A stretch of DNA of 41,867 nucleotides, from NCBI GenBank assembly GCA_903858595.1, contig CAIOJL010000182.1, positions 1 through 41,867 on the forward strand. The letters are read 5' to 3'. The translations under genes and the position numbers were made by a program. Under the pieces are notes generated by a model. The model searched no databases and was not told the DNA's origin. It saw nothing but the letters and a program-made list of their open reading frames with translations. The stretch comes from an uncultured Spartobacteria bacterium (GTDB lineage: Bacteria; Verrucomicrobiota; Verrucomicrobiia; Chthoniobacterales; UBA6821). Below are positions 1 to 37,477 of this stretch, one piece after another (position 1 is the stretch's first letter; each line of letters opens with the position of its first letter).

Positions 1-1
1 G

Positions 2-274
2 ATCAAGCTACAGCCCGCCCCTGCCGCAGCCGCCCGCAAGCCCGGTGCAGCCCCTTCGGCTACATCTGAGCCGGCTACGACATCTACAACACCTGCCAAG
101 ATTTCGGGTAAAGCCGTAGATGACGTTCCTAAAAATCTGAACCTCAGTAAGTCTACTGATGAGATTGAAGAAGAGACCGCTTCTTCGTCCGGGTTGTCGC
201 TTCCCTTGGTGATTGCAGTTGCTGTTCTTGCCCTTGTGGCATTTGGTATTCAGCTCTGGACCTTCCTGGCTTAG
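2..274 (+). CDS. C-terminal end of a membrane-anchored protein of unknown function (partial)
   Basis: An open frame enters from the left edge and ends at TAG 272-274, giving the last 90 residues. The visible part is a Pro/Ala/Thr-rich, probably disordered linker, then an acidic stretch (STDEIEEETASSSG), then one hydrophobic segment of about 20 residues (LPLVIAVAVLALVAFGIQLW) that ends four residues before the C-terminus. This looks like a tail-anchored or C-terminally anchored membrane protein. The N-terminal domain lies outside the window, so I cannot assign a function. Thioredoxin starts 31 bases downstream and may be co-transcribed. Confidence 0.7.
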   Translation: MKLQPAPAAAARKPGAAPSATSEPATTSTTPAKISGKAVDDVPKNLNLSKSTDEIEEETASSSGLSLPLVIAVAVLALVAFGIQLWTFLA

Positions 275-305
275 ACACTTTTTTACTCACCAACATCTAC
301 TTATC

Positions 306-629
306 ATGGCTTCCGAACACGTCCTTGAACTCAATGATGCAACCTTCGATCAGACCGTTGCTTCCTCGCCCGTCCTACTTGTCGACTTTTGGGCTCCTTG
401 GTGCGGACCCTGTCGTATGATTACCCCAGTCATCGAGGAACTCGGCAAGGAGCTTGCCGGCAAGGTGACCGTGTCCAAGGTCAATGTGGACGAGGCGCCT
501 GGTGTGGCGCAGACCCATCAGATCACCGCTATCCCGACGCTGATGATTTTTCGCAATGGAGTCCTCGCAGAGCGTATGACGGGTCTTTCTTCCAAGGCTG
601 CTCTTCTGGAGAAGCTCCAGGTTGCCTAA
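306..629 (+). CDS. trxA: Thioredoxin
   Basis: This is a 107-residue single-domain thioredoxin, the normal length for the family, acting as a cytoplasmic dithiol reductant. The active site WCGPC is at residues 32-36, preceded by the usual VLLVDFWAP strand, and the cis-proline loop AIPTLMIF follows near residue 74. The ORF track begins at 213, but the first 31 residues there are translated from the end of the upstream gene. The ATG at 306 gives the canonical N-terminus (MASEHVLELND). No strong Shine-Dalgarno sequence precedes it. It lies 31 bp after the upstream gene and 67 bp before the agmatine deiminase start chosen here. Confidence 0.95.
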   Translation: MASEHVLELNDATFDQTVASSPVLLVDFWAPWCGPCRMITPVIEELGKELAGKVTVSKVNVDEAPGVAQTHQITAIPTLMIFRNGVLAERMTGLSSKAALLEKLQVA

Positions 630-696
630 TTGCCCAATTGCCTAAGCCTAATTGGCAGAAGCTCCAGCTTCCCCTTTTATCTCACTATCGGTTCGA

Positions 697-1743
697 GTGA
701 CGGACTCCGCCGCAACGCCTTGTTCCTTGGGTTACTCGATGCCTGCGGAGTGGGAGAGACATGAGGCCACCTGGATTTCCTGGCCGCATGCGGATGGTCA
801 GAGCTTTCCCGAGAGTTATGACCGGGTTGTACCAACGCTTGTCAAGATGGCCTCGGTTCTTGCCGAGGCTGAAATCCTCAGAATCAATATCTCTAACTCC
901 GAACAGGAGAGTGTGCTGAGGCGACTTCTCTCGGCATTCGCTCCCATGGAGCGCATCGAGTTTCACAACAATCCGACCCATGAACCTTGGTGCCGGGACC
1001 ATGGTCCGATCTTTGTGAAACGTGCTCTGGCACCCCAGCTTGCAATCAACGACTTCGGGTATAATGCGTGGGGTAACAAGTATCCTCCCTTTGATGCTGA
1101 TGATATTGTCCCTACCCGGATCGCACGCCATTTTGGTTACCCTCTGTTCGAACCGCCATTCATCCTCGAGGGGGGATCCGTAGAGCCCAATGGAGCGGGT
1201 GCCTTACTCACCACGGAGTCGTGCCTTCTGAACCCCAACCGTAATCCCTCGATGTCCCGGGATCAGATCGAGCAGGGATTGAGGGATTATCTCGGAGTGG
1301 AGCAAATCCTCTGGCTCGGTGACGGTATTGAGGGGGATGATACCGACGGACATGTTGACGACATCACCCGCTTTGTCTCTCGTGACACTGTTATCACCGT
1401 CGTTGAGCCAAATCAGGCTGATCCCAACCACCTCCCCTTGAAGGAAAACCTCGAACGTCTTCGCGGCATGAAGCTGTCCGATGGAACTCCGCTGAAAGTT
1501 ATCGAGATGCCGATGCCCCCCCGAATCGACCGCGAGGGGATCCGCTTGCCGGCTAGTCATGCCAACTTCTACATCGCTAACGAATCCGTGCTGATGCCCT
1601 CATTCGGTGCTGATTCCGATGTGGAGGCAGTGGAGATCCTCGCGGAGCTTTTTCCTACTCGCATGATCCGGCCAATCGATTGCTGTGAGTTGATTTGGGG
1701 ACTGGGGGCGTTCCACTGCCTCACTCAACAGCAGCCCGCATAG
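697..1743 (+). CDS. aguA: Agmatine deiminase (agmatine iminohydrolase)
   Basis: Converts agmatine to N-carbamoylputrescine and ammonia in the arginine-decarboxylase route to putrescine. The porphyromonas-type peptidylarginine deiminase family signatures are present: MPAEWERHEATWISWPH at the N-terminus, EPWCRDHGPIF, ILEGGSVEPNG, DDTDGHVDDITRF, SHANFYI, and the catalytic cysteine in GAFHCLTQQQP near the C-terminus. The start is uncertain. The track uses TTG 652, which sits inside a potential hairpin (631-657). GTG 697 gives an N-terminus that matches the family length (TPCSLGYSMPAEW close to the start). ATG 739 would cut into the conserved segment. The usual partner, N-carbamoylputrescine amidase, is not in this window. 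Confidence 0.9.
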   Translation: MTDSAATPCSLGYSMPAEWERHEATWISWPHADGQSFPESYDRVVPTLVKMASVLAEAEILRINISNSEQESVLRRLLSAFAPMERIEFHNNPTHEPWCRDHGPIFVKRALAPQLAINDFGYNAWGNKYPPFDADDIVPTRIARHFGYPLFEPPFILEGGSVEPNGAGALLTTESCLLNPNRNPSMSRDQIEQGLRDYLGVEQILWLGDGIEGDDTDGHVDDITRFVSRDTVITVVEPNQADPNHLPLKENLERLRGMKLSDGTPLKVIEMPMPPRIDREGIRLPASHANFYIANESVLMPSFGADSDVEAVEILAELFPTRMIRPIDCCELIWGLGAFHCLTQQQPA

Positions 1744-1828
1744 GCCTTAGAAATCCCTTTTTGGCGAAAATGTATCGGATGGATGCTTGCAAAAGCCTGT
1801 TGGGATGTTTGTCCTATCAGACTTACTT

Positions 1829-3802
1829 ATGAATAACGCAATCCTCCAACTAGCCGCCCGCGATGCCCGCGGACTCGCCATCGACGCCGTCACCGCCTGC
1901 AAGTCCGGACATCTCGGCCTTCCCCTCGGTTCGGCTGACATCGGTGCCGTTCTCTTCGGTGAGGCACTCCAGATCGACCCCTCGTCTCCTCGCTGGATCA
2001 ACCGTGACCGGTTCATCCTCTCCGCTGGTCACGGCAGCATGTTCCTCTACGCATGGTTGCACCTTTCCGGGTTCGATCTTCCTCTCGATCAGGTGAAGAA
2101 ATTCCGCCAGCTTCACAGCATCACTCCTGGACACCCTGAGTTCCATGTGACTCCCGGAGTCGAGGCGACCACTGGTCCTCTCGGCCAGGGTGTGGCCAAT
2201 GGCGTGGGCTTCGCGATGTCCCAGAAGATGGCCGCTGCCCGCTTCAACACTCCCCAGCACACCATCTTCAACAACCATGTCGTCGTTCTCTGCGGCGATG
2301 GCTGTCTTCAGGAAGGGGTTTCGGCCGAGGCCTCATCGCTTGCCGGCCACCTGGGACTCGACAATCTCATCGTTTTCTTCGATTCCAACAACGTCACTCT
2401 CGACGCCATGCTGTATGTCAGCCAGAGCGAGGATGTCGGCACCCGCTATGCCGCCTACGGCTGGCATGTCCAGATAATCGACGGCCATAACTTGGACGAG
2501 ATCCTGGCAGCCTTCAACAAGGCCAAGTCCACCAAGGGAAAGCCGCACATGATCATCTGCAAGACGATCATCGGAAAGGGAATCCCCGAGGTCGAAGGCA
2601 CCAACAAGGCCCACGGCGAGGCAGGTGTGAAGTTCTCGGACGAGGCCCGCAAGGGACTCGGTCTTCCTGATGAGAAGTTCTTCATCGCTCCCGAGGTCAG
2701 CGCTTACTTCGCAGATCTCAAGTCGAAGCGTGCCGAGGCGCATGCCGTATGGCAGACAGAGTTCGCAGCCTGGCGCACCGCCAATACCGAACTAGCCGCC
2801 CTTCTGGATGCCGGCATTGAGCAGAAGATTCCTGACATTCTCTCTCTCATTCCTTCCTTCAAGGCCGATGAGATGATCGCCACTCGCAAGGCCGGAAGCA
2901 TCGTTCTCCAGCCGATCGCCAAGGCCATGCCTCTGCTGGTCAGCGGTAGTGCCGATCTCTTCGGTTCCACGCTCAACTATATCGAGGGAGGGGGTGACTT
3001 CACCGATCAGAACCGCGAGGGACGCAATATCCATTTCGGTATCCGCGAGCACGCCATGTGCGCAATCATGAACGGCTATGCATACGATGGCATTTTCCGT
3101 ATCGCAGGGGCTACCTTCCTGGTCTTCAGCGACTACGGTCGTCCATCCATTCGTGTGGCCGCGCTTTCCAAGCTGCCCACAACCTACATCTTTACCCACG
3201 ACTCCGTCGCCGTCGGCGAGGATGGTCCGACTCACGAGCCCGTTGAGACCGTCGCCGCACTCCGCGCGATACTAGGTTTGGATGTCATCCGTCCCGCCGA
3301 TCCTGAGGAGACCGCCGGTGCCTTCGCCGCCGCCATGGAGCACACGGATGGTCCGACGCTTCTAGCGCTCTGCCGTCAAAATCTGCCAAACCTGAGTGAG
3401 ATTCCTGTCGATGTCCGTCGCCAGGGTGTCTTCAAGGGGGGGTACATTGCCCGCAAGGAGACCTCGGCCCTGGAGGTCATCATTCTTGCCTCAGGCAGTG
3501 AACTGAATGTCGCCATGGATGCCGCCAAGACTCTCGGTGCCGGTGCCCGTGTTGTCTCCATGCCGTGCATGGAGCGTTTCGAGCGTCAGGATGCGGCTTA
3601 CCGCGAGGAGGTCCTCCCTACCTCGTGCCGCAAGCGTGTCTCAATCGAGGCCGGCATCTCCGATCCTTGGTTCTGCTATGTCGGTTTGGATGGGAAGACT
3701 GTGGCAATCGACCGTTTCGGTCTCAGCGCCCCCGGTGGCACCGTCCTCAAGGAACTCGGAATGACCGCGGAGAACGTAGTCAAGACTGCCCAGTCTCTCT
3801 AA
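1829..3802 (+). CDS. tkt: Transketolase
   Basis: A 657-residue single-chain transketolase of the pentose phosphate/Calvin pathways, transferring two-carbon ketol units with thiamine diphosphate. The N-terminal ThDP-binding domain shows the substrate loop [19 protein letters not shown] and the metal/ThDP motif GDGCLQEG ending in DSNN. The middle pyrimidine-binding domain has [14 protein letters not shown] and [15 protein letters not shown], and a C-terminal transketolase domain follows. The track starts at TTG 1787. ATG 1829 is better because [21 protein letters not shown] aligns with family N-termini. Both halves are fused in the usual bacterial way. A strong terminator follows 16 bp after the stop, so the gene ends a transcription unit. 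Confidence 0.96.
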
Positions 3803-3818
3803 GGAACTTCTTTCAGAT

Positions 3819-3850
3819 AGCCCCACCGGAGTGATCCGTTGGGGCTTTTT
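3819..3850 (+). terminator. Rho-independent terminator after tkt
   Basis: The 7-bp stem AGCCCCA/TGGGGCT continues through one C/T mismatch into a 4-bp inner stem CGGA/TCCG capped by a GTGA loop, and is followed directly by five T. It lies 16 bp after the tkt stop and before the permease start, which gives it a clear job in separating the two units. Confidence 0.9.
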
Positions 3851-3897
3851 GCTTTTCAACAGGGTGACTTTCTTCGTTTCGTCGGTATAGTTTTTCC

Positions 3898-4830
3898 GTG
3901 ACCCTTTTCACGGCTTGGTTCCACTTTAGTTTTTCGGATTTCCAGTATGCCTTCCTCAGCATCCTTTTGGAGGGGCTTCCCTTCCTCTTGGGAGGGGCGA
4001 TTCTCTCGGGTCTCTTGGAGGAGTTTCTGCCCCAGTCGTTCATGACCCGCCTTCTGCCGAAGAACCCTCGTACAGCCATCATTGTCAGCGGACTGCTCGG
4101 GGTGATCTTTCCGGTCTGTGAATGCGGCATCGTTCCGGTTGTGAGGCGTCTGTTGAAGAAAGGGCTTCCTGTCTCCTGCGGCATCACCTACATGCTTGCC
4201 GCCCCGATCGTGAATCCTCTGGTCATTCTGAGTACTCTTGCCGCATTTCGCGGACAGGGGGCATGGGAGATGACCATCCTTCGTTTTGGCCTGGGGCTTA
4301 CGGTGGCCATCGTGGCGGGATGGATCGTGAGTTACGTTGCCCCCTTCTCGATCTTGCGACCCGGTCTGCTTGCTCCAGAGAATGACCATAAGCACAATCA
4401 CAGCGGATCTGGCGGAATGGTCGACCGCCTGCGGAATGCCGCTTCCGTGGCCACACGTGATTTCCTCGATGTCGCCGTCTACTTCGTGATCGGTGCCGCC
4501 GCCGCCTCGCTCTTCAGTACCGCAGTGAATCAGGAGATCATCCTACCCCTCGCGGCGAATCCCCCGCTGGCCATCGTCTCCCTCATGGGACTGGCCTCCA
4601 TCCTCTCGGTCTGCAGCACGACAGATGCCTTCATCGCGTCGACGCTCACCACTTTCCCGATGGCCGCGAAGCTCGCATTCCTCGTCTTCGGTCCGATGCT
4701 CGATTTCAAGTTGCTCTTCCTTTACGGGGCGGCCTTCTCCAAGCGCTTTATTCTCTCGCTGGCACTCGGTCTTTTCGTGGTGATCGGACTTCTCTGCTGG
4801 AGGCTCTCTGCTCTGAATCTCGCATGGTGA
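3898..4830 (+). CDS. Membrane permease of the DUF318/ArsP_1 family
   Basis: A 310-residue polytopic membrane protein with about eight hydrophobic segments in two related halves. The hallmark is FPVCECGIVPVVRRL at residues 71-85, followed by GLPVSCGITYMLAAPIVNPLV, typical of the PF03773 permease family (YraQ/YcgR/ArsP type). Known members include ArsP, which exports trivalent organoarsenicals; the substrate of most others is unknown. A cytoplasmic loop near residue 160 is His-rich (NDHKHNHSGSG), hinting at metal binding. Start GTG 3898 is the most upstream reasonable choice; no clear ribosome binding site is seen. It is followed 7 bp later by a TIGR03943-family gene, a pairing known from other bacteria, so the two probably form one transporter. 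Confidence 0.85.
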   Translation: MTLFTAWFHFSFSDFQYAFLSILLEGLPFLLGGAILSGLLEEFLPQSFMTRLLPKNPRTAIIVSGLLGVIFPVCECGIVPVVRRLLKKGLPVSCGITYMLAAPIVNPLVILSTLAAFRGQGAWEMTILRFGLGLTVAIVAGWIVSYVAPFSILRPGLLAPENDHKHNHSGSGGMVDRLRNAASVATRDFLDVAVYFVIGAAAASLFSTAVNQEIILPLAANPPLAIVSLMGLASILSVCSTTDAFIASTLTTFPMAAKLAFLVFGPMLDFKLLFLYGAAFSKRFILSLALGLFVVIGLLCWRLSALNLAW

Positions 4831-4837
4831 CCGAATC

Positions 4838-5800
4838 ATGAAGAACTCCTCTTTCCTTCAAGGTCTTCGTGACTCCCTGATGCTCCTCCTCTGGGGAGGG
4901 TTCGTTCTCTGGCTTTCCTTTGCAGGGCAACTTGCCACCTACCTGCATCCTTCCCTCCAGAACTACACCACGGCAGCGGGCGTGGTCTTCCTAGTGCTCG
5001 CTTTCTTTGGATTCCGTTCACTCTTCACGCATCCGTTGCTGCACGAGCATCATGAACACCACGGGCACCACGAACGCTGTGGTAATCATCAGGGTCATGA
5101 TCATGCTGAGCAAGCCAAGGAACATCAGCACCACGGAACGGTTGATGAGATGGGAGCCATGCTCTTCAAGACCATCCTGCTACTTCTCCCGCTAGCCATC
5201 ATTGTTTCTGGCAAGGCGACTGCCTACTCGATCACCACGATTCAGATTAGGGGAGTCGTTGATAATATCAACAAGCTACCCTCGGCAAAAGCTGGAGCAG
5301 CAGCGGCGGCATCGGCTGCCTCTTCCGCGAAATCCACGACATCTTTCACCCCCTTCGCCATAACTGTTGCGACGAATGATGCTACGACCTCTGCACCTCA
5401 ATCATCCCCTTCATCGCATTCTTCTTCACCGGCTGCTTCCTGTGGCCCGATGCCGCTTCAGGTCATCGACATGCTCTATGCTGTCCAGATGCCCTCCTAC
5501 CGTGGGGAGTTCGAGGGCAAGGAGGTGGAACTGATCGGTCAATATATACCATTGACGACAGGCAATCCGAAGGGGGACCGCTTCCAGGCCATCCGGATGT
5601 TTATCACCTGCTGCGCCGCAGATGCCAAGCCGGTCGGAGTCACCGTTCAGTACCCGAAGCCTCTCAAGGTCTCAGAGATGGGTTGGGTGAAAATCACAGG
5701 CAAGCCTACCTTCCCTATGGAGGGTGGTCACCGCATGGCTGTGCTTGAAGCAACTAAGGTCGAGGAATGTCCCGCTCCATCAGAACCCTTTGTCTACTAG
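4838..5800 (+). CDS. TIGR03943/DUF1980-family membrane protein with His-rich metal-binding loop
   Basis: A 320-residue protein. Two transmembrane segments lie at about residues 14-30 and 45-63. A His-rich loop (residues 65-99, 14 His and one Cys) follows, then a third transmembrane segment (108-124), an Ala/Ser/Thr low-complexity linker (149-200), and a conserved C-terminal domain with MFITCCAADAKPVGV (adjacent cysteines 258-259). This is the layout of the YcgQ-type TIGR03943 family, which is encoded next to DUF318 permeases. It lies 7 bp after that permease and is surely in the same operon. The histidines suggest handling of a divalent metal, but the substrate is not known. The Ala/Ser linker looks longer than usual, which is an impression only. 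Confidence 0.82.
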   Translation: MKNSSFLQGLRDSLMLLLWGGFVLWLSFAGQLATYLHPSLQNYTTAAGVVFLVLAFFGFRSLFTHPLLHEHHEHHGHHERCGNHQGHDHAEQAKEHQHHGTVDEMGAMLFKTILLLLPLAIIVSGKATAYSITTIQIRGVVDNINKLPSAKAGAAAAASAASSAKSTTSFTPFAITVATNDATTSAPQSSPSSHSSSPAASCGPMPLQVIDMLYAVQMPSYRGEFEGKEVELIGQYIPLTTGNPKGDRFQAIRMFITCCAADAKPVGVTVQYPKPLKVSEMGWVKITGKPTFPMEGGHRMAVLEATKVEECPAPSEPFVY

Positions 5801-5895
5801 CACTCATCGCCTCTTTCCCGCTTCGTGCTCAGGAAGGAACGCGGGTTGATGCGTGGAAAAGTGCCCGGGCGGAACTAAGATTTCCCGAAAGATAA
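5767..5895 (+). CDS. Possible 42-residue secreted peptide (small ORF, doubtful)
   Basis: An ATG ORF overlaps the last 34 bases of the upstream gene in another frame. It encodes 42 residues: a positively charged start (MSRSIR), a hydrophobic core (TLCLLALIASFPL) and a signal-peptidase-like LRAQE site, then about 20 charged residues. The layout is that of a signal peptide on a very short mature peptide. GAGG is present but only 1-2 bases before the ATG, too close for a normal Shine-Dalgarno site. It could be a real small secreted protein, the decayed start of a longer gene, or chance. It is too short for the ORF track. Confidence 0.25.
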   Translation: MSRSIRTLCLLALIASFPLRAQEGTRVDAWKSARAELRFPER

Positions 5896-5907
5896 TAGAC
5901 TTATTGA

Positions 5908-5913
5908 TATAAT
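5908..5913 (+). promoter_or_regulatory. Candidate -10 element upstream of rpoN
   Basis: A perfect TATAAT lies 59 bp before the rpoN start in an AT-rich gap. No good -35 hexamer sits 16-18 bp upstream, so this is a weak prediction of the rpoN/mrp promoter. Confidence 0.3.
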
Positions 5914-5971
5914 TCTCAAGATGGCCCGAAAGTTGCTTCCCTAATTCCGTGTGTTACTTTTTAATTAGTAA

Positions 5972-11252: not shown

Positions 11253-11278
11253 GTGTTTGTGAAAAATTTCACAAACAC
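11253..11278. promoter_or_regulatory. CRP/FNR-family operator-like perfect palindrome
   Basis: Two perfect 12-base arms (GTGTTTGTGAAA and its reverse complement) are separated by two A. Inside is TGTGA-N6-TCACA, the exact consensus half-sites of E. coli CRP. The centre (11265.5) lies about 60 bp upstream of the transcription start predicted from the promoter at 11290-11318, the position of a class I CRP site. It lies in the serA/atp divergent region and could act on either. The symmetry is seen directly; binding by a CRP-family protein is inferred. Confidence 0.65.
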
Positions 11279-11289
11279 TCAAAAAGCAC

Positions 11290-11318
11290 TTGCCAGACGG
11301 GGCTTGCTTGATTGTTAT
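11290..11318 (+). promoter_or_regulatory. Candidate sigma-70-like promoter of the atp operon
   Basis: TTGCCA (11290-11295) and TGTTAT (11313-11318) are separated by 17 bp. The expected start near 11325 gives a leader of about 30 bases to the atpB ATG at 11356. The palindrome at 11253-11278 ends 11 bp upstream of the -35 element. Confidence 0.55.
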
Positions 11319-11355
11319 CCAGAACTCATTTTTTGACTTTCCCGAACTTCGATAC

Positions 11356-12184
11356 ATGGTTTTTTCAATCCTCCCGATAGCCAGCGCGGAACTTTCCGCG
11401 GAGACGCCTGAGTTTCTGACTCACTCCTTTCTTGCCTGGTTCACCAATTCGATCCTCGTCACGGCGATCGTGCTCGGGGTGATCATGTGGATCGTCCGCT
11501 CCTGCACCCGCAAGATCGAAGTCATCCCGGGGGCAGGTCAGAATTTCCTCGAGGCGGTCGTCGAGGGTTTTTACGGCGCCGTGGAGGGGATTCTTGGCGA
11601 CAAGATGACAAGGAAGTCTTTTGGTCTTCTCGGAACACTTTTCATTTTTATCCTGATCTCGAACTGGTTCGGCTTGCTGCCAGGCGTTGGTTCGATCGGT
11701 TGGCATGAGGGGGACAAATTCATTCCTCTCCTTCGTCCGGGGACCGCGGACATGAACATGACCATTGCCATGGCTGCAGTGTCGATGGTTCTCTGGTTTT
11801 ACTGGACGATGCAGGTCACGGGACCGGTTGCCTTCATCAAAGAACTCTTCGGCGTGAAAGGTGGCATGTCTGGCCCTATTCTCTTTCTCCTGGTGCCTCT
11901 CTTCCTCTTTGTGGGCGTGCTGGAGGTTGTTTCCATCGTAGTTCGCCCCGTCTCTCTCTCTCCGACTCTATGGAAATATCTTTGCCGGTGAGAACATGCT
12001 CGCGACGATGATCAATATAGGTCAAATCTTTCATTTCCCCCCTTGGCTCTCCTCGGTCCTGAGTTGCATTGTTCCCATTCCCTTCTATTTCCTGGAATTG
12101 CTTATCGGATTCCTCCAGGCAATGGTCTTCACTCTCCTGATTCTTGTGTACCTCCAACTCTCAACAGCGCACGAGGAACACTAA
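11356..12184 (+). pseudogene. atpB: ATP synthase F0 subunit a, interrupted by a frameshift
   Basis: Subunit a forms the proton half-channels beside the c-ring. The first frame (ATG 11356, MVFSILPIASAEL) runs through FLTHSFLAWFTNSILV, LIGTLFIFILISNWFGLLPG-type helices and VVRPVSLS, then derails and stops at 11991. The rest (LYGNIFAGENMLATMINIGQIF to the C-terminus HEEH, stop 12184) is in the next frame. The break is in a (TC)6 tract at 11951-11962. Adding one TC restores RPVSLSLRLYGN and a 276-residue protein of normal length. The lost codon context includes the arginine equivalent to E. coli aR210, essential for proton transport, so the sequence as given cannot encode a working subunit a. Explanations: sequencing or assembly error, slipped-strand variation, or recoding. 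The rest of the operon is intact, which favours the first two. Confidence 0.88.
11951..11962 (+). repeat. TC dinucleotide tract (6 copies) at the atpB frameshift
   Basis: Twelve bases of pure TC repeat lie exactly where the atpB frame changes. Seven copies would restore the conserved RPVSLSLRLYGN; six copies do not. Confidence 0.9.
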
Positions 12185-12272
12185 ACTTATCTTTTAAAGA
12201 CTTTTGGCAGCCGGGACCATGCGAGACGTGGACGACTGCCGGAAACAAAACAACAACAAACCAACACATCAC

Positions 12273-12515
12273 ATGCTCATCAACATTCTTGCCGAAGCCC
12301 TGACTTCGGCCAACACGATCACTGGCAGTTTCACTCTCGGCGTTGCCGGAGCAGGATCCGCCATCGGCATCGGTCTAATCGGAGCTCGCATGGTCGAGGC
12401 GATCGGCCGTAATCCCGCCACTCTTCCTAAGGTGCTCATGATCGGCATTCTGACCATCGCTCTGGCCGAGGCCATCGCAATTTTCGGTCTGATCTTCGCA
12501 TTCCAGGGCAAGTAA
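12273..12515 (+). CDS. atpE: ATP synthase F0 subunit c
   Basis: An 80-residue c-ring subunit with two helices joined by the polar loop GRNP (residues 45-48). Helix 1 has the glycine-rich packing motif GVAGAGSAIGIGLIGARM. Helix 2, MIGILTIALAEAIAIFGLIFAF, has the ion-binding carboxylate Glu66. The Gln in helix 1 and the Glu-Ser/Thr in helix 2 that mark Na+-binding rings are not present, so a proton-driven enzyme is likely. The track start (12204) adds 23 polar residues; ATG 12273 gives the usual short N-terminus. The leader is A/C-rich (CCAACACATCAC) with no Shine-Dalgarno sequence. A hairpin follows immediately after the stop. Confidence 0.95.
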   Translation: MLINILAEALTSANTITGSFTLGVAGAGSAIGIGLIGARMVEAIGRNPATLPKVLMIGILTIALAEAIAIFGLIFAFQGK

Positions 12516-12527
12516 TCCTTCTTGGGC

Positions 12528-12549
12528 GGCGCCCCGTCACCGGGGCGCC
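12528..12549 (+). promoter_or_regulatory. Intercistronic stem-loop between atpE and atpF
   Basis: A perfect 9-bp GC-rich stem (GGCGCCCCG and its complement) is closed by a TCAC loop, 12 bp after the atpE stop. A short T-run (CCTTTTT) follows about 8 bases later, so it could be a partial terminator or an RNA-stabilising or processing element. Because c is needed in many copies per enzyme, a post-atpE hairpin is a plausible way to raise its yield over the downstream subunits; this is inference. Confidence 0.75.
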
Positions 12550-12601
12550 ACTCAACCTTTTTAATAAACCAAAAAACATTATCGGGAGAATCTAACGGAA
12601 G

Positions 12602-13099
12602 ATGGAAATTTTAAAACAATTCGGAGTTGATTGGCCGCACTTCATTGCCCAGTTGGTTCTTTTCCTCATCGTTTACTTTGTCCTGAACCGCTTTGCCTTC
12701 GCTCCCTTGCTGAAGGTTCTGGAAGAACGTCGCAAGCGCATTGAGGAAGGACAGCTCAATGCTGAGAAGATCAAGAAGCAGCTTGCCGAAGCGGAACTCC
12801 GTTATCAGGAGATTCTCCGGAAAGCCAATGATGATGCTCAGGTGATGATTGAGGAGTTACGCAAGAGCAATGAGGCATTTTCCCAACGGGAGATGGAAAA
12901 GGCTGTCAAGGAATCAGCCGCTATTGTGGAACGGGCTCGCCACGAAATTACTTCCGAGCGCAACCGCATGGTCGACGAAGTAAAGCGAGAGATGGTTTCT
13001 CTTGTCGTCAAGACCACGGCCCAGGTCGCAGGCAAGGTTCTCTCACCCGAAGATCAGAAGCGCCTCAGTGAGGAAGCCTCCAAGGAACTCGCTTCCTAG
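12602..13099 (+). CDS. atpF: ATP synthase F0 subunit b
   Basis: A 165-residue peripheral-stalk subunit. One N-terminal membrane helix (about 14-32, FIAQLVLFLIVYFVLNRFAFAPL) leads into a long charged coiled coil (LEERRKRIEEGQLNAEKIKKQLAEAE onward) that reaches the F1 head. The length is typical. A GGGAG sequence sits about 13 bases upstream of the ATG, the nearest thing to a ribosome binding site among the atp genes. There is only one b-type gene here, so the stalk is probably a homodimer. Confidence 0.94.
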   Translation: MEILKQFGVDWPHFIAQLVLFLIVYFVLNRFAFAPLLKVLEERRKRIEEGQLNAEKIKKQLAEAELRYQEILRKANDDAQVMIEELRKSNEAFSQREMEKAVKESAAIVERARHEITSERNRMVDEVKREMVSLVVKTTAQVAGKVLSPEDQKRLSEEASKELAS

Positions 13100-13146
13100 G
13101 GCAATCTTGATCCGCTTTTCAGGAAACTCCCAACGTACCAACCACG

Positions 13147-13536
13147 ATGCAGATCCCCAAGGATGCCAAAATTAAGGCCAGGGAACTCTTCGAGTCCTCA
13201 CTCGATGACTCTGGACGCCCTGACAGTGCCAAGGCACTCTCCATCGCTGACCTCGTTGTGAATGCCGCCCCGCGTCACTCCGTTCAGATCCTCAGGGAGT
13301 TTGCGCGCCTGATCCGACTCGAGACAGCCAAGCATCACGCCGTGATCGAAAGCGCCGCCCTTCTAGACGAAGGAACCCGCGACTCGATTCTCAAGTCCCT
13401 GCAAGAACGGGATGGGGGAGCCGTCACGGTCGAAGTGAAAGTCGATCCAGTACTTATCGGCGGCGCTCGCATCCGTCTCGGAAGTGAAGTCTGGGATGCC
13501 TCGGTGCTGTCCCGTCTCTTAGCCCTGAATTCCTAA
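13147..13536 (+). CDS. atpH: ATP synthase F1 subunit delta (short form)
   Basis: The delta subunit joins the peripheral stalk to the top of F1. The C-terminal part is recognisable: VEVKVDPVLIGGARIRLGSEVWDASVLSRLLAL corresponds to the family's DPsLiGG...gd.v.D.Sv...L..L motif. The protein is only 129 residues, against about 175-185 for typical delta subunits. The shortage is at the N-terminus, where part of the helical bundle that binds the alpha subunit is missing or reduced. I see no frameshift or upstream in-frame start that would restore it, since the gap to atpF is only 47 bp. Position between atpF and atpA fits. Confidence 0.88.
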   Translation: MQIPKDAKIKARELFESSLDDSGRPDSAKALSIADLVVNAAPRHSVQILREFARLIRLETAKHHAVIESAALLDEGTRDSILKSLQERDGGAVTVEVKVDPVLIGGARIRLGSEVWDASVLSRLLALNS

Positions 13537-13598
13537 TTATCACCATTGCCTGTTAACCCTTCCTCTTCCTAAAACTCACCTTTCAACACCCACAAACC

Positions 13599-15134
13599 AT
13601 GAGCAACCTCCTGCAAGAACTTGAAGCAAAGATCAGCGGTCTTTCCAACGCAACCGCTGCCAAATCCAATGTCGGAACCGTCCGCGAGATCGGAGACGGT
13701 GTCGCCCGCATCGAGGGACTCGGCGGCGTCATGCTCAACGAGATGCTCGAGTTCCCTGGTGGGATCTACGGCATCGCGCTGAACCTCGAGGAGACCGAGG
13801 TTGGAGCCATTATTCTCGGAGATTACACGTCGATCTCCGAGGGGGACGAGGTGAAGACCACCGGGCGCCTGCTTGAGGTGCCGGTCGGCAAGGAGCTTCT
13901 CGGTCGCGTTGTTGACTCACTCGGACAGCCGATCGATGGGAAGGGACCTATCCAGTCGAAGACCTTCTACCCCGTCGAGAAGACAGCTCCCGGTATCATC
14001 AAGCGTCAGAGCGTCAGTCAGCCTCTCTGCACCGGCATCATGTCCATCGACGCGATGATTCCTATCGGTCGCGGTCAGCGTGAGCTTATCATCGGTGATC
14101 GAGCCACTGGCAAGACGACAATCGCCATAGACACGATCATCAACCAGGCAAACATCAACCGCTCGGGTGAGGCCTCCGGAGATCCTTCCTTCCGTCCTAT
14201 CTACAGTATCTATGTTGGCGTTGGTCAGAAGAATGCGAACATTGCCCGTGTCGTCGACACGCTCTCCTCCCACAATGCCCTCCAGTACACGATCATCGTC
14301 TCTGCTCCCGCATCGGACAGTGCTTCAAACCAGTACCTTGCCCCCTTTGCCGGCGCGGCGATGGGAGAGTGGTTCATGGATAATGGCATGGATGCCCTGA
14401 TTGTTTTTGACGATCTCTCGAAGCATGCCGTGGCTTATCGTCAGATTTCTCTTCTTCTCAAGCGTCCTTCGGGACGTGAGGCCTATCCCGGTGATGTCTT
14501 CTACCTTCACAGCCGTTTGCTCGAGCGTTCCGCCCGTCTGAGTGAGAAGGCCGGAAACGGATCCCTCACAGCCCTTCCAATCATCGAGACTCAGGCTGGT
14601 GACGTGTCGGCCTACATCCCGACAAACGTCATCTCGATTACGGATGGCCAGATCTACTTGGAGACCGATCTCTTCTATCAGGGTATCCGACCAGCTATTT
14701 CGGTCGGTCTTTCAGTCTCACGCGTCGGTTCCGCAGCGCAGATTAAGGCGATGAAGCAGGTTGCCGGTAAGCTGAAGGGCGATCTTGCCCAGTTCCGCGA
14801 GCTAGCCGCCTTTTCCCAGTTCGGCAGTGATCTGGATGCCCGCACCAAATCTCAACTCGATCGCGGAGGGCGCATCGTGGAACTCTTCAAACAGCACCAA
14901 TATCACCCGCTTGCCGTGGAGCTTCAGGTTGCCATCCTCTGGACCATGCAGAAGGGGTACTTTGATGCGGTCGCGGTCGAGCGGGTCAAGGACTTCCAGG
15001 ATCAGCTTTCCCAGTTCCTAAACTCCCGCAAGGAGGCCCTCCTCTCACTCATCCTCAAGAAAGGTGCCGTTGATGCCGAGATCGAGAAAGAACTGACTGC
15101 GGCATTGGAAGAGTTCAAAGTCATTTTCCGCTAA
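13599..15134 (+). CDS. atpA: ATP synthase F1 subunit alpha
   Basis: A 511-residue non-catalytic nucleotide-binding subunit of the F1 hexamer. It shows the N-terminal beta-barrel ([20 protein letters not shown]), P-loop GDRATGKT at residues 166-173, [62 protein letters not shown], and the arginine-finger region [17 protein letters not shown]. Length and order are standard. The leader (CACCCACAAACC before ATG) has no Shine-Dalgarno sequence. Confidence 0.98.
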
Positions 15135-15163
15135 AATAACCATATAACGCATACTGGTAGCTT

Positions 15164-16048
15164 ATGGCTAATACCCGCGACATCCGCCGACGCATTAAGT
15201 CGGTCAAGAACACTGCCCAGATTACGAAGGCAATGCAGATGGTCGCCGCATCCAAAATGCGCAAGGCTCAGCAGGCTGCCATGGCCGGACATCCCTACTC
15301 CCTGGTTCTCAACAGGGTCCTTGTTTCCCTGCGGGACATGGTGAGCGCGGACTTCCATCCACTGCTGGAGGTTCGGCCTGTGAAGAAGACTCTGGTCCTC
15401 CTTGTCACCTCGGACAAAGGGCTCTGCGGTGCTCTTAATACCAACGTGCTTCGGGAGGCGATGCTGCTTGATCAGGAGAAGACTCTCTTCGTTGCCTCCG
15501 GAAAAAAGGGAGCTTCTTTTCTGGCAAGAACAGGGCGCAACATGATTGCTGATTTCGCACTGCCCGACAATCCAACCTTCCTTCAGACCAAAGCGATTTC
15601 CAAATATTGCTTGGAGAAGTTCCTCTCCGGTGAAGTCGACCGCGTTGAGGTGCTCTACCCGAAGTTCGTTAACACGCTGGTTCAGAAGCCTCTCCTGGTT
15701 ACTCTACTTCCCATCACGGATGATAAAGCCGCAGGAGTTTCCCAATCGGTTAGTGAACAGGTGGCTATAGAGGCAACGGCAACAACCGGAGCCCAGTTCC
15801 TGTTCGAGCCGGGTGCGGATGAAGTCCTCAATTCCGTTCTTCCCTATTACTTCCACTTCGAGGTGTTCCAGATGATCCTCGATGCACGAGCTTCGGAACA
15901 GAGCGCCCGCATGGTTGCGATGAAGAGCGCGACCGACAATGCGAAGAGCCTCGTGAAGGATCTCACTCTTGAGTACAACAAGGCCCGTCAGGCCAGCATC
16001 ACCACCGAACTTCTCGAAATCACAACCGCCCAGATGGCTCTTGCGTAA
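15164..16048 (+). CDS. atpG: ATP synthase F1 subunit gamma
   Basis: A 294-residue central rotor shaft. Conserved N-terminal MANTRDIRRRIKSVKNTAQITKAMQMVAASKMRKAQ and C-terminal ARMVAMKSATDNAKSLVKDLTLEYNKARQASITTELLEI form the antiparallel coiled coil inside the alpha3beta3 head, and TSDKGLCGALN marks the globular domain. The length is normal. It lies 29 bp after atpA and 72 bp before atpD, with no Shine-Dalgarno sequence visible before the ATG. Confidence 0.97.
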   Translation: MANTRDIRRRIKSVKNTAQITKAMQMVAASKMRKAQQAAMAGHPYSLVLNRVLVSLRDMVSADFHPLLEVRPVKKTLVLLVTSDKGLCGALNTNVLREAMLLDQEKTLFVASGKKGASFLARTGRNMIADFALPDNPTFLQTKAISKYCLEKFLSGEVDRVEVLYPKFVNTLVQKPLLVTLLPITDDKAAGVSQSVSEQVAIEATATTGAQFLFEPGADEVLNSVLPYYFHFEVFQMILDARASEQSARMVAMKSATDNAKSLVKDLTLEYNKARQASITTELLEITTAQMALA

Positions 16049-16063
16049 AAGCTAAAAACTTAA

Positions 16064-17599
<1,536 letters not shown>

Positions 17600-18010
17600 A
17601 TGAGCTCACTCCAACTCGAGATCGTCACTCCGGAGGCTCGCGTTTTCACGGGAAGTGCGCAGATGGTGATTGCTCCCGGGGTGGAAGGCGGTCTCGGCGT
17701 CCTGCCAGACCATATGCCTCTCATGACGGAAATTATTCCTGGGGAGGTCATTGTGACCACAGAAGATGGCGAACTCTCCTTCGCTGTGGGCGGTGGCTTC
17801 CTGGAGGTCCTGCCGGATCGTGTCTCCATTCTAACAGACATGGCGATCGTCGAGGCGGAGATCGACGAGAAGGCCGCCGAAGAAGCGGTAGCCCGTGCCG
17901 AACAGGAAATGCGTGACAAGGTTCTCTCCGGTGAGGAACTTGCCACAGTGCAGGCCTCCCTGCTTAGGTCCTTCGCACAACTTCACGTCAAACGTCGTTC
18001 TCATCGGTAA
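17600..18010 (+). CDS. atpC: ATP synthase F1 subunit epsilon
   Basis: A 136-residue subunit with the N-terminal beta-sandwich (LQLEIVTPEARVFTGSAQMVIAPGVEGGLGVLPDHMPLM), FAVGGGFLEVLPDRVSIL, and a C-terminal two-helix domain (AEIDEKAAEEAVARAEQEM onward) that couples the rotor and can inhibit ATP hydrolysis. The ATG abuts the atpD TAA with no gap, implying translational coupling. It is the last gene of the atp set; a small hairpin overlaps its stop codon. Confidence 0.96.
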   Translation: MSSLQLEIVTPEARVFTGSAQMVIAPGVEGGLGVLPDHMPLMTEIIPGEVIVTTEDGELSFAVGGGFLEVLPDRVSILTDMAIVEAEIDEKAAEEAVARAEQEMRDKVLSGEELATVQASLLRSFAQLHVKRRSHR

Positions 18011-18027
18011 GGGATCCTTATCCCTTA
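18008..18027 (+). terminator. Weak hairpin at the end of the atp operon
   Basis: TAAGGGAT and ATCCCTTA form an 8-bp stem around CCTT, overlapping the atpC stop codon. Only a broken T-rich stretch (CCTTATTTCTT) follows, so it may be a weak terminator or an mRNA 3' end element. Confidence 0.4.
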
Positions 18028-18050
18028 TCCTTATTTCTTGTTAAGGGCAG

Positions 18051-18689
18051 ATGCCAGTTGCCCCCTCATCTTGCTGTGAGTTGCTGGCCCAGTGTCTGGA
18101 ATCGGATCGGTTTCTGATCGGCCAGATTCTTCTGCGCTCCGACTACACATTGCGTCACGTCGAGGACGCTGATGGTGAAGACCTTGATTTCTTTAACTCA
18201 GCCACTGATGCCAGGCTTATTGCTCGTTATGATGCCCAAGAAGAGTTCCGCCCCCTGAAAACGGCACCGAACCTGAGGCGTGGCTGGCTCCTCAAGCTTG
18301 GCTCACTCGAGGAGATGGAACGTGCGATCGAATATTTTTATCCTGCAGCTCTTGGGCTCTGGCTTTCTTTCCTCAACGGGTCCCTTCAGCCTACGAGCCT
18401 TCGTCAGACCTTGGACCGCCAGACGGGAATGTACCGGATCACGCAATTATTGAAGCCCGATCAAGCCCAGGAGCTTGTGGCGAAGTGCTGCACCTCCGAC
18501 GGAGGATGCCTACGTACCATTCTGTGGGATCTGGCTCCCAGTGAACCGCTCTCAGGCTTTCCTGCCGAGAAGCTCTCCCTCGACATACTTCCCACTAACC
18601 GAATTCCGCTGATCTGCCGCGAACTCTGTAATCTGGTGGTCGCGGCCGCACGTCCGATTGCCAAGGGTAACCTTCCCAAGAAGGACTGA
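18051..18689 (+). CDS. DR2241-like protein with a putative 4Fe-4S cysteine cluster
   Basis: A 212-residue soluble protein. The N-terminal half (about 20-110) looks like the alpha/beta domain of DR2241-type proteins (FLIGQILLRSDYTLRHVED, GWLLKLGSLEEMERAIEYFYPAALGLWLSF). The C-terminal half has KCCTSDGGCLRTILWDL (Cys146, 147, 153) and IPLICRELCNLVVAAAR (Cys189, 193). That spacing fits the Fer4_23/DR2241 4Fe-4S domain, recalled from family knowledge and not from a search. In other genomes such domains are found fused or near CbiX-like chelatases; here none is present. It lies 40 bp after atpC and 57 bp before an amidohydrolase. Function is unknown. Confidence 0.65.
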   Translation: MPVAPSSCCELLAQCLESDRFLIGQILLRSDYTLRHVEDADGEDLDFFNSATDARLIARYDAQEEFRPLKTAPNLRRGWLLKLGSLEEMERAIEYFYPAALGLWLSFLNGSLQPTSLRQTLDRQTGMYRITQLLKPDQAQELVAKCCTSDGGCLRTILWDLAPSEPLSGFPAEKLSLDILPTNRIPLICRELCNLVVAAARPIAKGNLPKKD

Positions 18690-18746
18690 GGAGAGAGGTT
18701 TAAGGACAAAGAAACCAAGAACGAAAGGATTAGTCTCTAACACGCC

Positions 18747-19988
18747 ATGCCTGCCTCAGAAGCAATAAGGCTCTACAGGGCAACAAGCGTGCTTCCGATA
18801 AGTTCGCCTTATATCTCCGATGGAGGGCTTGCTGTGAGGGGTGATAAGATCCTTGGTGTGGGTACCTGGAAGGAGCTGGTTCAGGAGTATCCCGGCGCCT
18901 CGCAGGAAGATCTCGGGGAGGCAATCCTAATGCCCGGGCTGATCAACGCCCATTGCCATCTCGACTACTCGATGATGCGGAGCGCCCTTTTTGGAGGCGG
19001 CTCGTTTGCCGAGTGGATCCAGCGTCTCAATGCTATGCGTCGCTCGCTGGACCAGAGGGATTACTTGGATGCAATAGCAGCGGGATTGAATGAGCTCCAC
19101 CTGTGGGGATGTACTACGGTCCTGAATATCGAGTCCTTTCCGGAGTTGCTGCCCTTTCTTACCGAATCCCCGATCAGGGTTTGGTGGTTCCTCGAAGTGA
19201 TGGATGTGAGGAGTCGTCTCCAATCAGCAGAGGCCTTGGCAGGGGCAATCTATTTTCTTGAGAAGGCGGGTGAGGGGTTAGGAGTGTTCGGAATCTCCCC
19301 CCACGCCCCCTATACCGTCTCCCGCGAGCTCTACAAACTCTCATCGACCTATGCTCTCAAATATCAGCTTCCACTCTGCACACACCTGGCCGAGTCCGAG
19401 GAAGAAATGAGCATGTTTGCGAAGGGTGAGGGGCTTCTCTACGAATTTTTATGCTCCATTGGGCGTCCGATGGAGGATTGTGAGGGCATAACCCCTATTC
19501 AAGCAGTATTGGGGAGAGAGCTTGTTCCTGAGGGATCGATCCTTGTTCACATGAATCAGCTCGATAGTAACGACCGGGAGTTGCTGAAACGTACGGCAGG
19601 ACACTATCCTGTAGTACATTGCCCCAGAACCCATGCATTTTTCGAACGACCTCCCTTTGATCTGAATTTCTTCCGAGAAAGCGGGATTCCTCTTCTCTTG
19701 GGAACTGACAGTCTTGCTAGTAATCAGGATCTCAACATGTTTGCCGAAATGAGGGCTCTGTCCGAATCTTTTCCTATGCTTGATCCTGGCGAAATTCTTC
19801 GCATGGTGACGACATCCCCCGCTGCCGCGATCGGTCGCGCTGGAATGCTGGGGGAGCTTTCCTCGGGAGCTCTTGCGGATTTCATTGCTATTCCCGATCC
19901 GGCACCGAATGCCGGGTTAAAAGGAGTCACGGAACGGGTGCTCGCCAACCGGACTCCTCCGGCTGTATGGATCTCGGGTCGATCATGA
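18747..19988 (+). CDS. Metal-dependent amidohydrolase/deaminase (TrzA/SsnA-type superfamily)
   Basis: A 413-residue protein of the amidohydrolase superfamily. Metal ligands are visible: NAHCHLDYS (His69, His71), CTHLAESEEEM, a His in the ISPHAPYTVS segment, and GTDSLASNQDLNMFAEM with the catalytic Asp. ILVHMNQLDSNDRE and YPVVHCPRTHAFF fit the chlorohydrolase/nucleoside-deaminase branch (S-adenosylhomocysteine or aminodeoxyfutalosine deaminases, atrazine chlorohydrolase relatives). The exact substrate cannot be read from the sequence; no other menaquinone (mqn) gene lies here to support MqnX. Its TGA overlaps the next gene's ATG (ATGA), so the two are translationally coupled. Confidence 0.82.
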   Translation: MPASEAIRLYRATSVLPISSPYISDGGLAVRGDKILGVGTWKELVQEYPGASQEDLGEAILMPGLINAHCHLDYSMMRSALFGGGSFAEWIQRLNAMRRSLDQRDYLDAIAAGLNELHLWGCTTVLNIESFPELLPFLTESPIRVWWFLEVMDVRSRLQSAEALAGAIYFLEKAGEGLGVFGISPHAPYTVSRELYKLSSTYALKYQLPLCTHLAESEEEMSMFAKGEGLLYEFLCSIGRPMEDCEGITPIQAVLGRELVPEGSILVHMNQLDSNDRELLKRTAGHYPVVHCPRTHAFFERPPFDLNFFRESGIPLLLGTDSLASNQDLNMFAEMRALSESFPMLDPGEILRMVTTSPAAAIGRAGMLGELSSGALADFIAIPDPAPNAGLKGVTERVLANRTPPAVWISGRS

Positions 19989-21934
19989 GTGCACTGCGAT
20001 CGTTTCTTGTTTGGATATCTTCCAGGTCTTGGTTTTCAAGTCTTCTCCTCGGACTTGTGCTTCTTACGGTGGCTGTCACCTATGCTCAGGTCCTGAGCTT
20101 CCATTTCCTGCCGTTCTGGGACGACGACACCAATATCCATCGGAATCCCCTCTATGCGCCGCTTTCGTGGGGAAGCGTGGCTACCTTTTGGAAGGCTCCC
20201 TTCCAGCAACTCTATATCCCCGTGACATATTCCGTTTGGGCGGGTCTTGTCGCCCTCTCACGTATCATGGCCGGGACAAGCATCAGTTTCGGGCCGATCA
20301 ATGCCGCGCTTTTTCACGGAACGAATCTTATTATTCACCTCCTTTCCGTAGGTATGGTTTTTCTCATTGTTCGTAGAATGCTGGGTGCGCGCTGTTCTAC
20401 TGATTCGATTACTTCGCAACGCGTTCTGCTGGCATCCACATCTGGGGCCCTGGCTTTCGGTCTTCACCCGGTCCAGGTCGAGGCGGTCGCCTGGGTCTCG
20501 GGATTGCGAGACCTTCTGGGCGGTGCATTTTCTCTTGCAGCCCTTGCTCTTTTCCTTTCATGGCTCGATCACTCCGGAAGGAATCCCCGACAGCTCTTCC
20601 GATACATTGCCGCCACCCTTCTTCTACTCTTGGCCTTCGGGTCCAAGCCGGGGAGCGTCGTTACGCCAGCTCTGGCCCTTCTTTGCGGCTTCTGGCTTTT
20701 ACGGGTCAGGGGACGTTTGCTCAAGCCCCTTCTCTGGCTGATTCCTTGGTTCATCGTAGCTGTTCTGGAGGTAATGATGACGTCCAAGGCACAGCCGGCT
20801 GCGGAACTTGCTCGTTCACTGGTGCCTCTCTGGGCGAGGCCTCTGGTGGCCGGTGACGCGATCTCCTTTTACATCTGGAAACTTCTCTGGCCTGCGGATC
20901 CCTGGGGACTCTGTGCTGATTATGGGCGTTCCCCAAACTCTCTTTTGTCGGCTGGTATTCTGTACTGGAGTTGGCTGATTCCAATCCTCCTCGCTTGCCT
21001 GCTGGCATTCTTCAAAAAACTCCGTCCTTATATGCTCCCGGCCACGCTTATGGTCATCGGAACGCTTCCGACGCTGGGTCTTATCCCTTTTAACTTCCAG
21101 GTTGTATCAACGGTTAGCGACCGATATCTCTATCTGGGCCTGCTGGGGCCGGCACTGGCCTTTGCCATGCTGATCAGCGATGCGCGTCTTCGGATTGCCA
21201 TTCTTCTGGCGGCTGTTTTTCTTTCCTTTTGGACAGTCTTGACGCTGCTTCAGATACCGCAATGGGAGGCCGGCGAGTTTTTCTTTCCTGCGACGTTGGC
21301 CCGCAATCCCACCAGCTGGAAGTCCCGCCATAACTATGCCTGCACACTAGATGCCCAGGGGAAACTTCCCGAGGCTCTGAAGGAATTCGTGGAGGCGATC
21401 CATCTGCGTCCCTCGAATGCCGAGGCCTACAACGATGTGGCCCTCACCCTCTTGAAGATGGGACGCCGTCAGGAAGCAATCCAGGAGTTCCAGCAGTCCC
21501 TCCAGGTGAGGGCGACAACTGGGGCCTCGCGGAATCTTGCGGCAGCCCTGCTGATGAACGGCGAACCGGCAAAGGCAGCTCAAGTTTACCGACTTGCGAT
21601 GCAGATCGACCCGGGTGACCTGCAGGACCAGCGCTCGCTGGCCTGGTTGCTTGCAACGCACCCCGATGGCACGGTCCGCAACGGCCAGGAAGCTGTGGCC
21701 CTTTCCAAACAGATCGTGGAAGCAACGAACGCGCAGGTTCCACTCTTCCTTCTCACGTATGCCGCGGCCTTAGCCGAATGCGGAACTTTTGATGAAGCCT
21801 CCCGGGTTGCCACAATGGCGGCATCCGCCTATGAGCATTCCGGTGATAACTCGATGGCACAGATGATTCAGACAAGAGTGCTTCCTGCACTAGGTGCTCA
21901 TCAGCCGATCAGGGATAATCCTGCACCGAGGTAA
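19985..21934 (+). CDS. Polytopic GT-C-like membrane protein with C-terminal TPR repeats (TMTC-like)
   Basis: A 649-residue protein. The N-terminal two thirds has about ten or more transmembrane segments, the first at about residues 16-36. An acidic WDDDTNIHRNPL loop follows directly, where GT-C glycosyltransferases carry their catalytic Asp residues. The last third is soluble with about three TPR motifs (NYACTLDAQGKLPEALKEF, AYNDVALTLLKMGRRQEAI, NLAAALLMNGEPAKAAQVY). This matches the TMTC/DUF1736-type architecture of proteins thought to add mannose or other sugars from a lipid carrier. Start ATG 19985 forms an ATGA overlap with the upstream gene, preferred over the track's 19967. Substrate is unknown. 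Confidence 0.75.
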   Translation: MSALRSFLVWISSRSWFSSLLLGLVLLTVAVTYAQVLSFHFLPFWDDDTNIHRNPLYAPLSWGSVATFWKAPFQQLYIPVTYSVWAGLVALSRIMAGTSISFGPINAALFHGTNLIIHLLSVGMVFLIVRRMLGARCSTDSITSQRVLLASTSGALAFGLHPVQVEAVAWVSGLRDLLGGAFSLAALALFLSWLDHSGRNPRQLFRYIAATLLLLLAFGSKPGSVVTPALALLCGFWLLRVRGRLLKPLLWLIPWFIVAVLEVMMTSKAQPAAELARSLVPLWARPLVAGDAISFYIWKLLWPADPWGLCADYGRSPNSLLSAGILYWSWLIPILLACLLAFFKKLRPYMLPATLMVIGTLPTLGLIPFNFQVVSTVSDRYLYLGLLGPALAFAMLISDARLRIAILLAAVFLSFWTVLTLLQIPQWEAGEFFFPATLARNPTSWKSRHNYACTLDAQGKLPEALKEFVEAIHLRPSNAEAYNDVALTLLKMGRRQEAIQEFQQSLQVRATTGASRNLAAALLMNGEPAKAAQVYRLAMQIDPGDLQDQRSLAWLLATHPDGTVRNGQEAVALSKQIVEATNAQVPLFLLTYAAALAECGTFDEASRVATMAASAYEHSGDNSMAQMIQTRVLPALGAHQPIRDNPAPR

Positions 21935-28397: not shown

Positions 28398-28961
28398 ATG
28401 ATCCTTGTCATCGATAACTACGACTCCTTCACCTACAATCTTGTCCAATACTTTGGGGAACTCGGCGCGGAGCCCGTGGTTCGCCGCAACGACCAAATCA
28501 CGATTTCCGAAATTGAGGCACTCGGCCCTGACCGGATCTGCATCTCGCCCGGTCCCTGTACGCCGAAGGAAGCCGGCATTAGTTCCGAGGTGATACGGAC
28601 TCTCGCGGGACGATATCCCATTCTCGGAGTGTGCCTAGGCCACCAGTGCATGGGTGATGTCTATGGAGGTGAAGTGGTGAGGGCCGGGCGCCTGATGCAT
28701 GGTAAGACCTCTCCGATTCATCACAACTCGAAGGATTTGTTTGCCGGGCTACCAAATCCCTTCGAGGCAACTCGTTATCACAGCTTGCTCATACGTAGGG
28801 AGAGTTTTCCAGACTGCCTCGAGATCACGGCAGAGACCGCGGAGGGAGAAATCATGGGACTTCGCCACAAGGAGCTACCGCTCTGGGGGGTCCAGGTCCA
28901 TCCGGAGTCGATCCTTACTACTCATGGCAAGGAGCTGTTGGCTAATTTTTTGCGGCTGTAG
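28398..28961 (+). CDS. trpG: Anthranilate synthase component II (glutamine amidotransferase)
   Basis: A 187-residue class I glutamine amidotransferase supplying ammonia to Trp[32 protein letters not shown], the nucleophile in [10 protein letters not shown] (Cys79), RYHSLL, and the His-Glu pair in [10 protein letters not shown] are all present. In some bacteria the same subunit also serves aminodeoxychorismate synthase (PabA). Because it sits 2 bp after trpE, trpG is the natural name. trpD and trpC are not adjacent. Confidence 0.95.
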
Positions 28962-29054
28962 GACTGATCAATGCGCAGGTCGCAATAGGCAAGTCGCTGA
29001 AAAACAAAAAAACCTGCAACTTTCCAGTAGGGATCGCCTTTAATCATCACACGC

Positions 29055-30353: not shown

Positions 30354-30453
30354 AGAGTATTTGATTGTTTACCAAGGCGTGCAGCGCAGTGGCAATACCC
30401 TTGAGGTCTTGCCCAAGCAAGCAACGCAGGAAAACGGCCAAATACTCTTCAGC
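30349..30453. repeat. Perfect 15-bp inverted repeat, 75 bp apart, between adaptor and pump genes
   Basis: GCTGAAGAGTATTTG (30349-30363) overlaps the adaptor's stop codon, and its exact reverse complement lies at 30439-30453. The intervening 75 bp can fold further (for example GGCAA...TTGCC). In RNA this would make a long hairpin just after the adaptor gene. It might tune expression of adaptor versus pumps, or be the trace of a small intergenic mobile repeat. Confidence 0.75.
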
Positions 30454-30565
30454 CGAACGGTTCGCTGTGAGTTCCTAACTCTCTGTTGATTCAAGAGGCT
30501 CTCCGAAGGCTCTACATCCCAACGACCGACTGCCGGGAGAGAAGCCTTCAGGAAAATCGAATTTC

Positions 30566-36870: not shown

Positions 36871-37477
36871 GAAAAATCCGTCCGGCAATCTGGGCGACAG
36901 CGTGCGTCTCCAAATCCTCTCCGCATTCCGCCGAGAGTGAGGTCATTCTGACGCCAGCAATCCCGCAGGGAATGATCTCATCGAATCCCGGAAGATCTTT
37001 TGCTACGTTCAGCGCGAATCCGTGCATCGAGATCCAGCGGCGCACACCGATGCCGATGGAAGCGATTTTACTCTCTTTTACCCAGACGCCGGTCAGGCCT
37101 TCCCTCCGGATACCCTGGACGGAATATTCTGCAAGAATGTCGATGATGACCTCCTCCAGGAACCGAAGATATCGGTGAAGATCGTGTCCCTTTCTGTTTA
37201 GATTCAGGATAGGATAGCCAACCAACTGGCCGGGACCGTGGTAGGTCGCCTGTCCGCCTCGATTTGTGCGATGGATGGGATGGGGGAGACGGTTCTCCTC
37301 ACCTAGGCTCAACTCATTGCGTGAGCGTCCCATCGTATAGACAGGGTCATGCTCCAGAAGAAGGAGGTCATCGTTCGATTCCCCTGCGATTTTTTCTCTT
37401 ACCAAGGATTCCTGAAGCTCCATCCCCTTCTCATAGCCGATTCGTCCGAGCCACCGGGTCTTGAGTTTGAAGCTCAT
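36833..37477 (-). CDS. lipB: Lipoyl(octanoyl) transferase
   Basis: A 214-residue cytoplasmic enzyme that moves octanoyl from acyl carrier protein to lipoyl domains of 2-oxoacid dehydrogenases and GcvH. The signature RGGQATYHGPGQLVGYPIL (residues 73-91), Lys137 in ESKIASIGIGVRRW, and the acyl-enzyme Cys171 in EIIPCGIAGVRMTSL agree with E. coli LipB (Lys135, Cys169). It overlaps ruvC upstream by 4 bp (ATGA). Its 3' end overlaps the convergent RND gene by 38 bp, so there is no room for a separate terminator. LipA is not in the window. Confidence 0.96.
   Translation of the reverse strand: MSFKLKTRWLGRIGYEKGMELQESLVREKIAGESNDDLLLLEHDPVYTMGRSRNELSLGEENRLPHPIHRTNRGGQATYHGPGQLVGYPILNLNRKGHDLHRYLRFLEEVIIDILAEYSVQGIRREGLTGVWVKESKIASIGIGVRRWISMHGFALNVAKDLPGFDEIIPCGIAGVRMTSLSAECGEDLETHAVAQIAGRIFLRNLEMLPEGRF

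Follow-up and report, generated by a model that had tools for sequence, protein, structure and literature searches.

A private frame break in atpB of a draft Spartobacteria genome, probably a consensus error in a short TC tract

The ATP synthase operon and its first gene

The window, by which we mean the whole stretch of 41,867 nucleotides that was analysed, is contig C182 of a draft metagenome-assembled genome of an uncultured Spartobacteria bacterium. This genome amounts to 2.35 Mb in 242 contigs and is 96% complete, with 1.2% contamination. An operon encoding an F-type ATP synthase occupies positions 11356-18010 of the forward strand, with its genes in the order a, c, b, delta, alpha, gamma, beta and epsilon, and each of the subunits is recognised by Pfam. 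Downstream of atpB, which encodes subunit a, lie atpE (subunit c, 12273-12515, PF00137), atpF (subunit b, 12602-13099, PF00430), atpH (subunit delta, 13147-13536, PF00213), atpA (subunit alpha, 13599-15134, Pfam match), atpG (subunit gamma, 15164-16048, PF00231), atpD (subunit beta, 16121-17599, Pfam match) and atpC (subunit epsilon, 17600-18010, PF02823 and PF00401), all on the forward strand. The first-pass annotation, which was made from the letters of the DNA, had described these other atp genes as whole, and indeed each of them is open in one frame and has a Pfam match. At 129 aa, the delta subunit is short, and its match is confined to the C-terminal half of the OSCP profile (PF00213 positions 85-169); its length is the same in the sister species, so that the shortness looks like a lineage trait and not like a break.

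The frame of atpB, which starts with an ATG at 11356, breaks inside positions 11951-11962, a perfect (TC)6 tract. From the ATG, the in-frame part is normal up to ...VRPVSLS within the tract and then runs out of frame; this reading, ...VVSIVVRPVSLSPTLWKYLCR, ends at a TGA at 11989-11991, which gives a 5' piece of 11356-11991. The residues beyond the break, SLRLYGNIFAGENMLATM..., sit in the next frame to 12184. This second frame starts in the tract at 11957, reads SLRLYGNIFAGENMLATMINIGQIF...STAHEEH and is intact to a TAA stop at 12184 (3' piece, 11957-12184). Both pieces match the Pfam ATP-synt_A profile (PF00119) above the cut-off, the 5' piece at profile positions 5-148 (93.7 bits) and the 3' piece at positions 148-217 (54.9 bits). 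Together, they cover the whole domain without a gap but in two frames, which means that one ATP-synt_A domain is split exactly at the tract.

The first codon past the tract, CGA at 11963-11965, is that of the conserved arginine of the RLYGN motif, so the earlier statement that the frame breaks just ahead of an essential arginine was accurate. This codon is absent from the 5' piece and can be read in the second frame only; as assembled, the arginine is thus not in one frame with the N-terminal part of atpB. It is the equivalent of aR210 of E. coli, a residue that is indispensable for proton transport in that bacterium. Reinitiation at the ATG at 11996 was considered and rejected: this start codon is in the second frame but lies 3' of the arginine codon, and the arginine would therefore be present in neither piece.

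Replacement of the broken subunit by a second subunit a or by a V-type ATPase was ruled out, because neither a second subunit a nor a V-type ATPase subunit I was found in the genome. A real and fixed loss would consequently remove all ATP synthase while leaving the rest of the operon intact. Given the lack of a backup subunit and the intact state of the other subunits, we consider a fixed loss of subunit a implausible in a cell that maintains the remaining operon. As a separate observation, additional PF00006 matches are present on contigs C30 and C26, but the genome lacks a second subunit a that could pair with them.

The atpB gene in related genomes

The search for atpB covered 58 genomes of the order, including that of the window, and 55 of these gave a match. 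Those of the relatives that have names are metagenome-assembled genomes whose titles give Spartobacteria, Chthoniobacterales or Verrucomicrobia. A comparison of this kind had been proposed in the first-pass annotation. Its outcome is that each of the other 54 matching genomes (57 others were searched) has atpB in one frame, 14 of 15 congeners among them; a frameshift common to the genus or the family was found in none of the relatives examined. We read the codons surrounding the motif in the loci that were retrieved, and a RPVSLSLRLYGN-type motif, with its arginine in frame, is present in all relatives read except L019, in which the motif deviates from the pattern used and the domain is nevertheless in one frame. 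Three draft genomes of the order (G006, G017 and G025) gave no match to subunit a; two of the three are ~95% complete, and the missing matches are probably assembly gaps.

The nearest genome is that of the sister species, G004, which has 96% DNA identity to the window over atpB. At the site of the break it has TCTCTCTCGCTCCGA, which is two bases more. Its intact atpB encodes 276 residues, exactly the length that had been predicted for the window's gene if one extra TC were supplied. Over the aligned stretch (11254-21934), the two-base difference at the tract is the sole gap relative to G004 that falls inside a gene. In operon and in the conserved RPVSLSLRLYGN motif, subunit a of the window (PF00119) is like that of its Spartobacteria and Chthoniobacterales relatives; it differs from them in having two bases fewer in the TC tract and, as a result, two frames, in this assembly alone.

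Compared with G004, the part of atpB ahead of the break shows 18 synonymous and 4 nonsynonymous codon differences in 200 codons, and the part past the break shows 5 synonymous and 0 nonsynonymous differences in 73 codons. That all five differences past the break are synonymous indicates that the break is private and very recent. Decay of the gene past the break is ruled out by the same counts, in agreement with the earlier view of the downstream part as intact, and they show purifying selection on the 3' part of atpB, which was normally constrained up to a very recent time at the least.

The undecayed 3' part is also what would be expected if the two bases had genuinely and very recently been lost, either in the strain that was sampled or among part of the population, that is, through an ordinary inactivating mutation that is deleterious or briefly tolerated. 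Dinucleotide tracts typically mutate by losing one unit, and atpB has a perfect (TC)6 at this site. Such a loss, however, would deprive an ATP synthase that is otherwise intact and conserved of its sole subunit a, and the two-base loss is seen in no congener. We therefore regard a genuine recent loss as unlikely.

At the position of the tract, the relatives encode V-S-L-S-L-R with varying synonymous codons, and the tract is interrupted by synonymous changes such as TCG, TCA, TCC or CTG. The pyrimidine repeat thus results from the residues that are encoded and is not maintained as a repeat.

Two further observations concern the comparison of the window with the sister genome. Synteny is interrupted at ~5887-5920 of the window: positions 1-5886 match contig C4 of G004 at 88-94 kb, and the window from 5921 on matches the same contig at 143 kb and beyond. 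This interruption is either a rearrangement or an assembly join. In addition, positions 28948-37212 have no match to this sister contig at E 1e-20 or better, and this is possibly a strain-specific region.

Other frame breaks and repeat tracts in the genome

Frame breaks were surveyed in ~665 kb of this genome against ~1.3 Mb of G004 by translating the open reading frames of each and searching them against the other genome. Split-frame calls numbered 9 among 233 orthologous open reading frames here and 3 among 240 in the sister. Judging from the translations, we discarded seven of the calls here and all three in the sister as out-of-frame 5' extensions or non-coding open reading frames. This left two real breaks in conserved proteins in ~230 orthologues of this genome, atpB and trmL, versus zero in the sister, or about one private frame break per hundred conserved genes in the sampled part of this genome. 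The second broken gene encodes a TrmL-like tRNA methyltransferase (L093, G000:C20:249-697); a deletion of one base splits it, in this genome only, and it is in one frame in 13 of the 13 congeners in which it was found. Two private breaks against none support the view that these are consensus errors; the counts are small, and they fit such errors without proving them.

In the 665 kb, only nine five-unit and two six-unit dinucleotide tracts are present, and an abundance of repeat tracts that would hint at contingency loci was ruled out on this basis. These numbers bear on slipped-strand phase variation, in which expansion and contraction of the tract would switch ATP synthase on and off within the population. 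A perfect dinucleotide repeat does lie inside the reading frame, and a change of one unit would switch the frame. Six units, however, make a short tract, and the pure repeat is neither conserved nor expanded in the relatives, which have synonymous interruptions instead. Moreover, the genome has few six-unit TC or CT tracts, and the sole other TC-phase one sits in an unbroken gene, so that nothing points to a system of genes switched by repeats. Switching on and off would also be hard to reconcile with the role of the sole ATP synthase. Our literature search on phase variation of atpB returned nothing relevant among titles and the openings of abstracts. Taken together, phase variation is very improbable.

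Interpretation of the short tract

Translational correction would restore the full protein if ribosomes slipped by -2 on the repeat, with UCU re-pairing with UCU, or by +1. With UC repeats, slippage by -2 would allow perfect re-pairing and would yield normal residues, and -2 frameshifting has precedents in phage Mu and arteriviruses (PMC5009743). Another precedent is plastid atpB, which encodes a different subunit, beta, and whose frameshifted form is translationally corrected on an oligo-A run (PMC8254509). This plastid gene, atpB I-iota, is likewise a frameshifted ATP synthase gene with the shift in a simple-sequence tract. It differs in that it concerns subunit beta, an oligo-A tract and a one-base insertion, and in that its correction was shown experimentally. 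Furthermore, correction of the plastid gene depends on a homopolymer, and when two bases were deleted there the correction was poor, a reporter in E. coli retaining ~5% activity (PMC8254509), which argues against recoding on the TC tract. The shift site is also not conserved, all relatives examined having the gene in one frame, and the RNA around it (11930-12040) folds no better than shuffled sequences (z = 0.59, by a fold method without pseudoknots). We consequently give translational correction hardly any credence. Least probable of all is that the short tract is real and fixed in the species and that a -2 ribosomal slip on the UC repeat yields subunit a; if this were true, an essential ATP synthase would depend on corrective frameshifting on a dinucleotide repeat.

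Three readings had been offered in the first-pass annotation: that the assembly is one repeat short, that the tract is subject to phase variation, or that the shift is recoded at translation. The first is the one that we favour; phase variation and recoding of atpB are unsupported. It is likely that atpB of the window is an ordinary F-type gene and that its consensus lacks two bases in the pyrimidine tract, either through a sequencing, assembly or strain-mixture consensus error or as an unrepresentative rare variant. The assembler may have picked a rare variant, or a strain mixture may have collapsed to a short consensus. An intact atpB is very probably carried by the population, and we infer that the reads, or most cells, are intact.

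An error is favoured because the break is private to this draft genome, because trmL is broken here alone, and because the relatives have no long pure tract. A break that is private to one assembly, with a second private break elsewhere in it, is the pattern expected of an assembly or consensus indel error. Two points count against an error. Consensus errors of short reads in a six-unit dinucleotide tract are not common, and the one other TC-phase six-unit tract in the genome lies in an unbroken gene, which means that such tracts do not make the assembly fail in every case. To these must be added that two breaks versus zero is a small count.

Frame breaks caused by indel errors serve as a quality measure of metagenome assemblies (PMC13087279). 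The case of atpB is like these in that a conserved gene of a fragmented draft genome is cut short by a private indel; it differs in that the error here is a probable one, deduced from a comparison of assemblies.

We advise against presenting the broken atpB as a finding about biology. A short tract that was real and fixed would make this a remarkable example of an ATP synthase that is recoded or switched by a repeat. The main lesson is one of caution: when a fragmented metagenome-assembled genome shows a lone frame break in an essential gene, both relatives and reads should be consulted before any biology is inferred from it.
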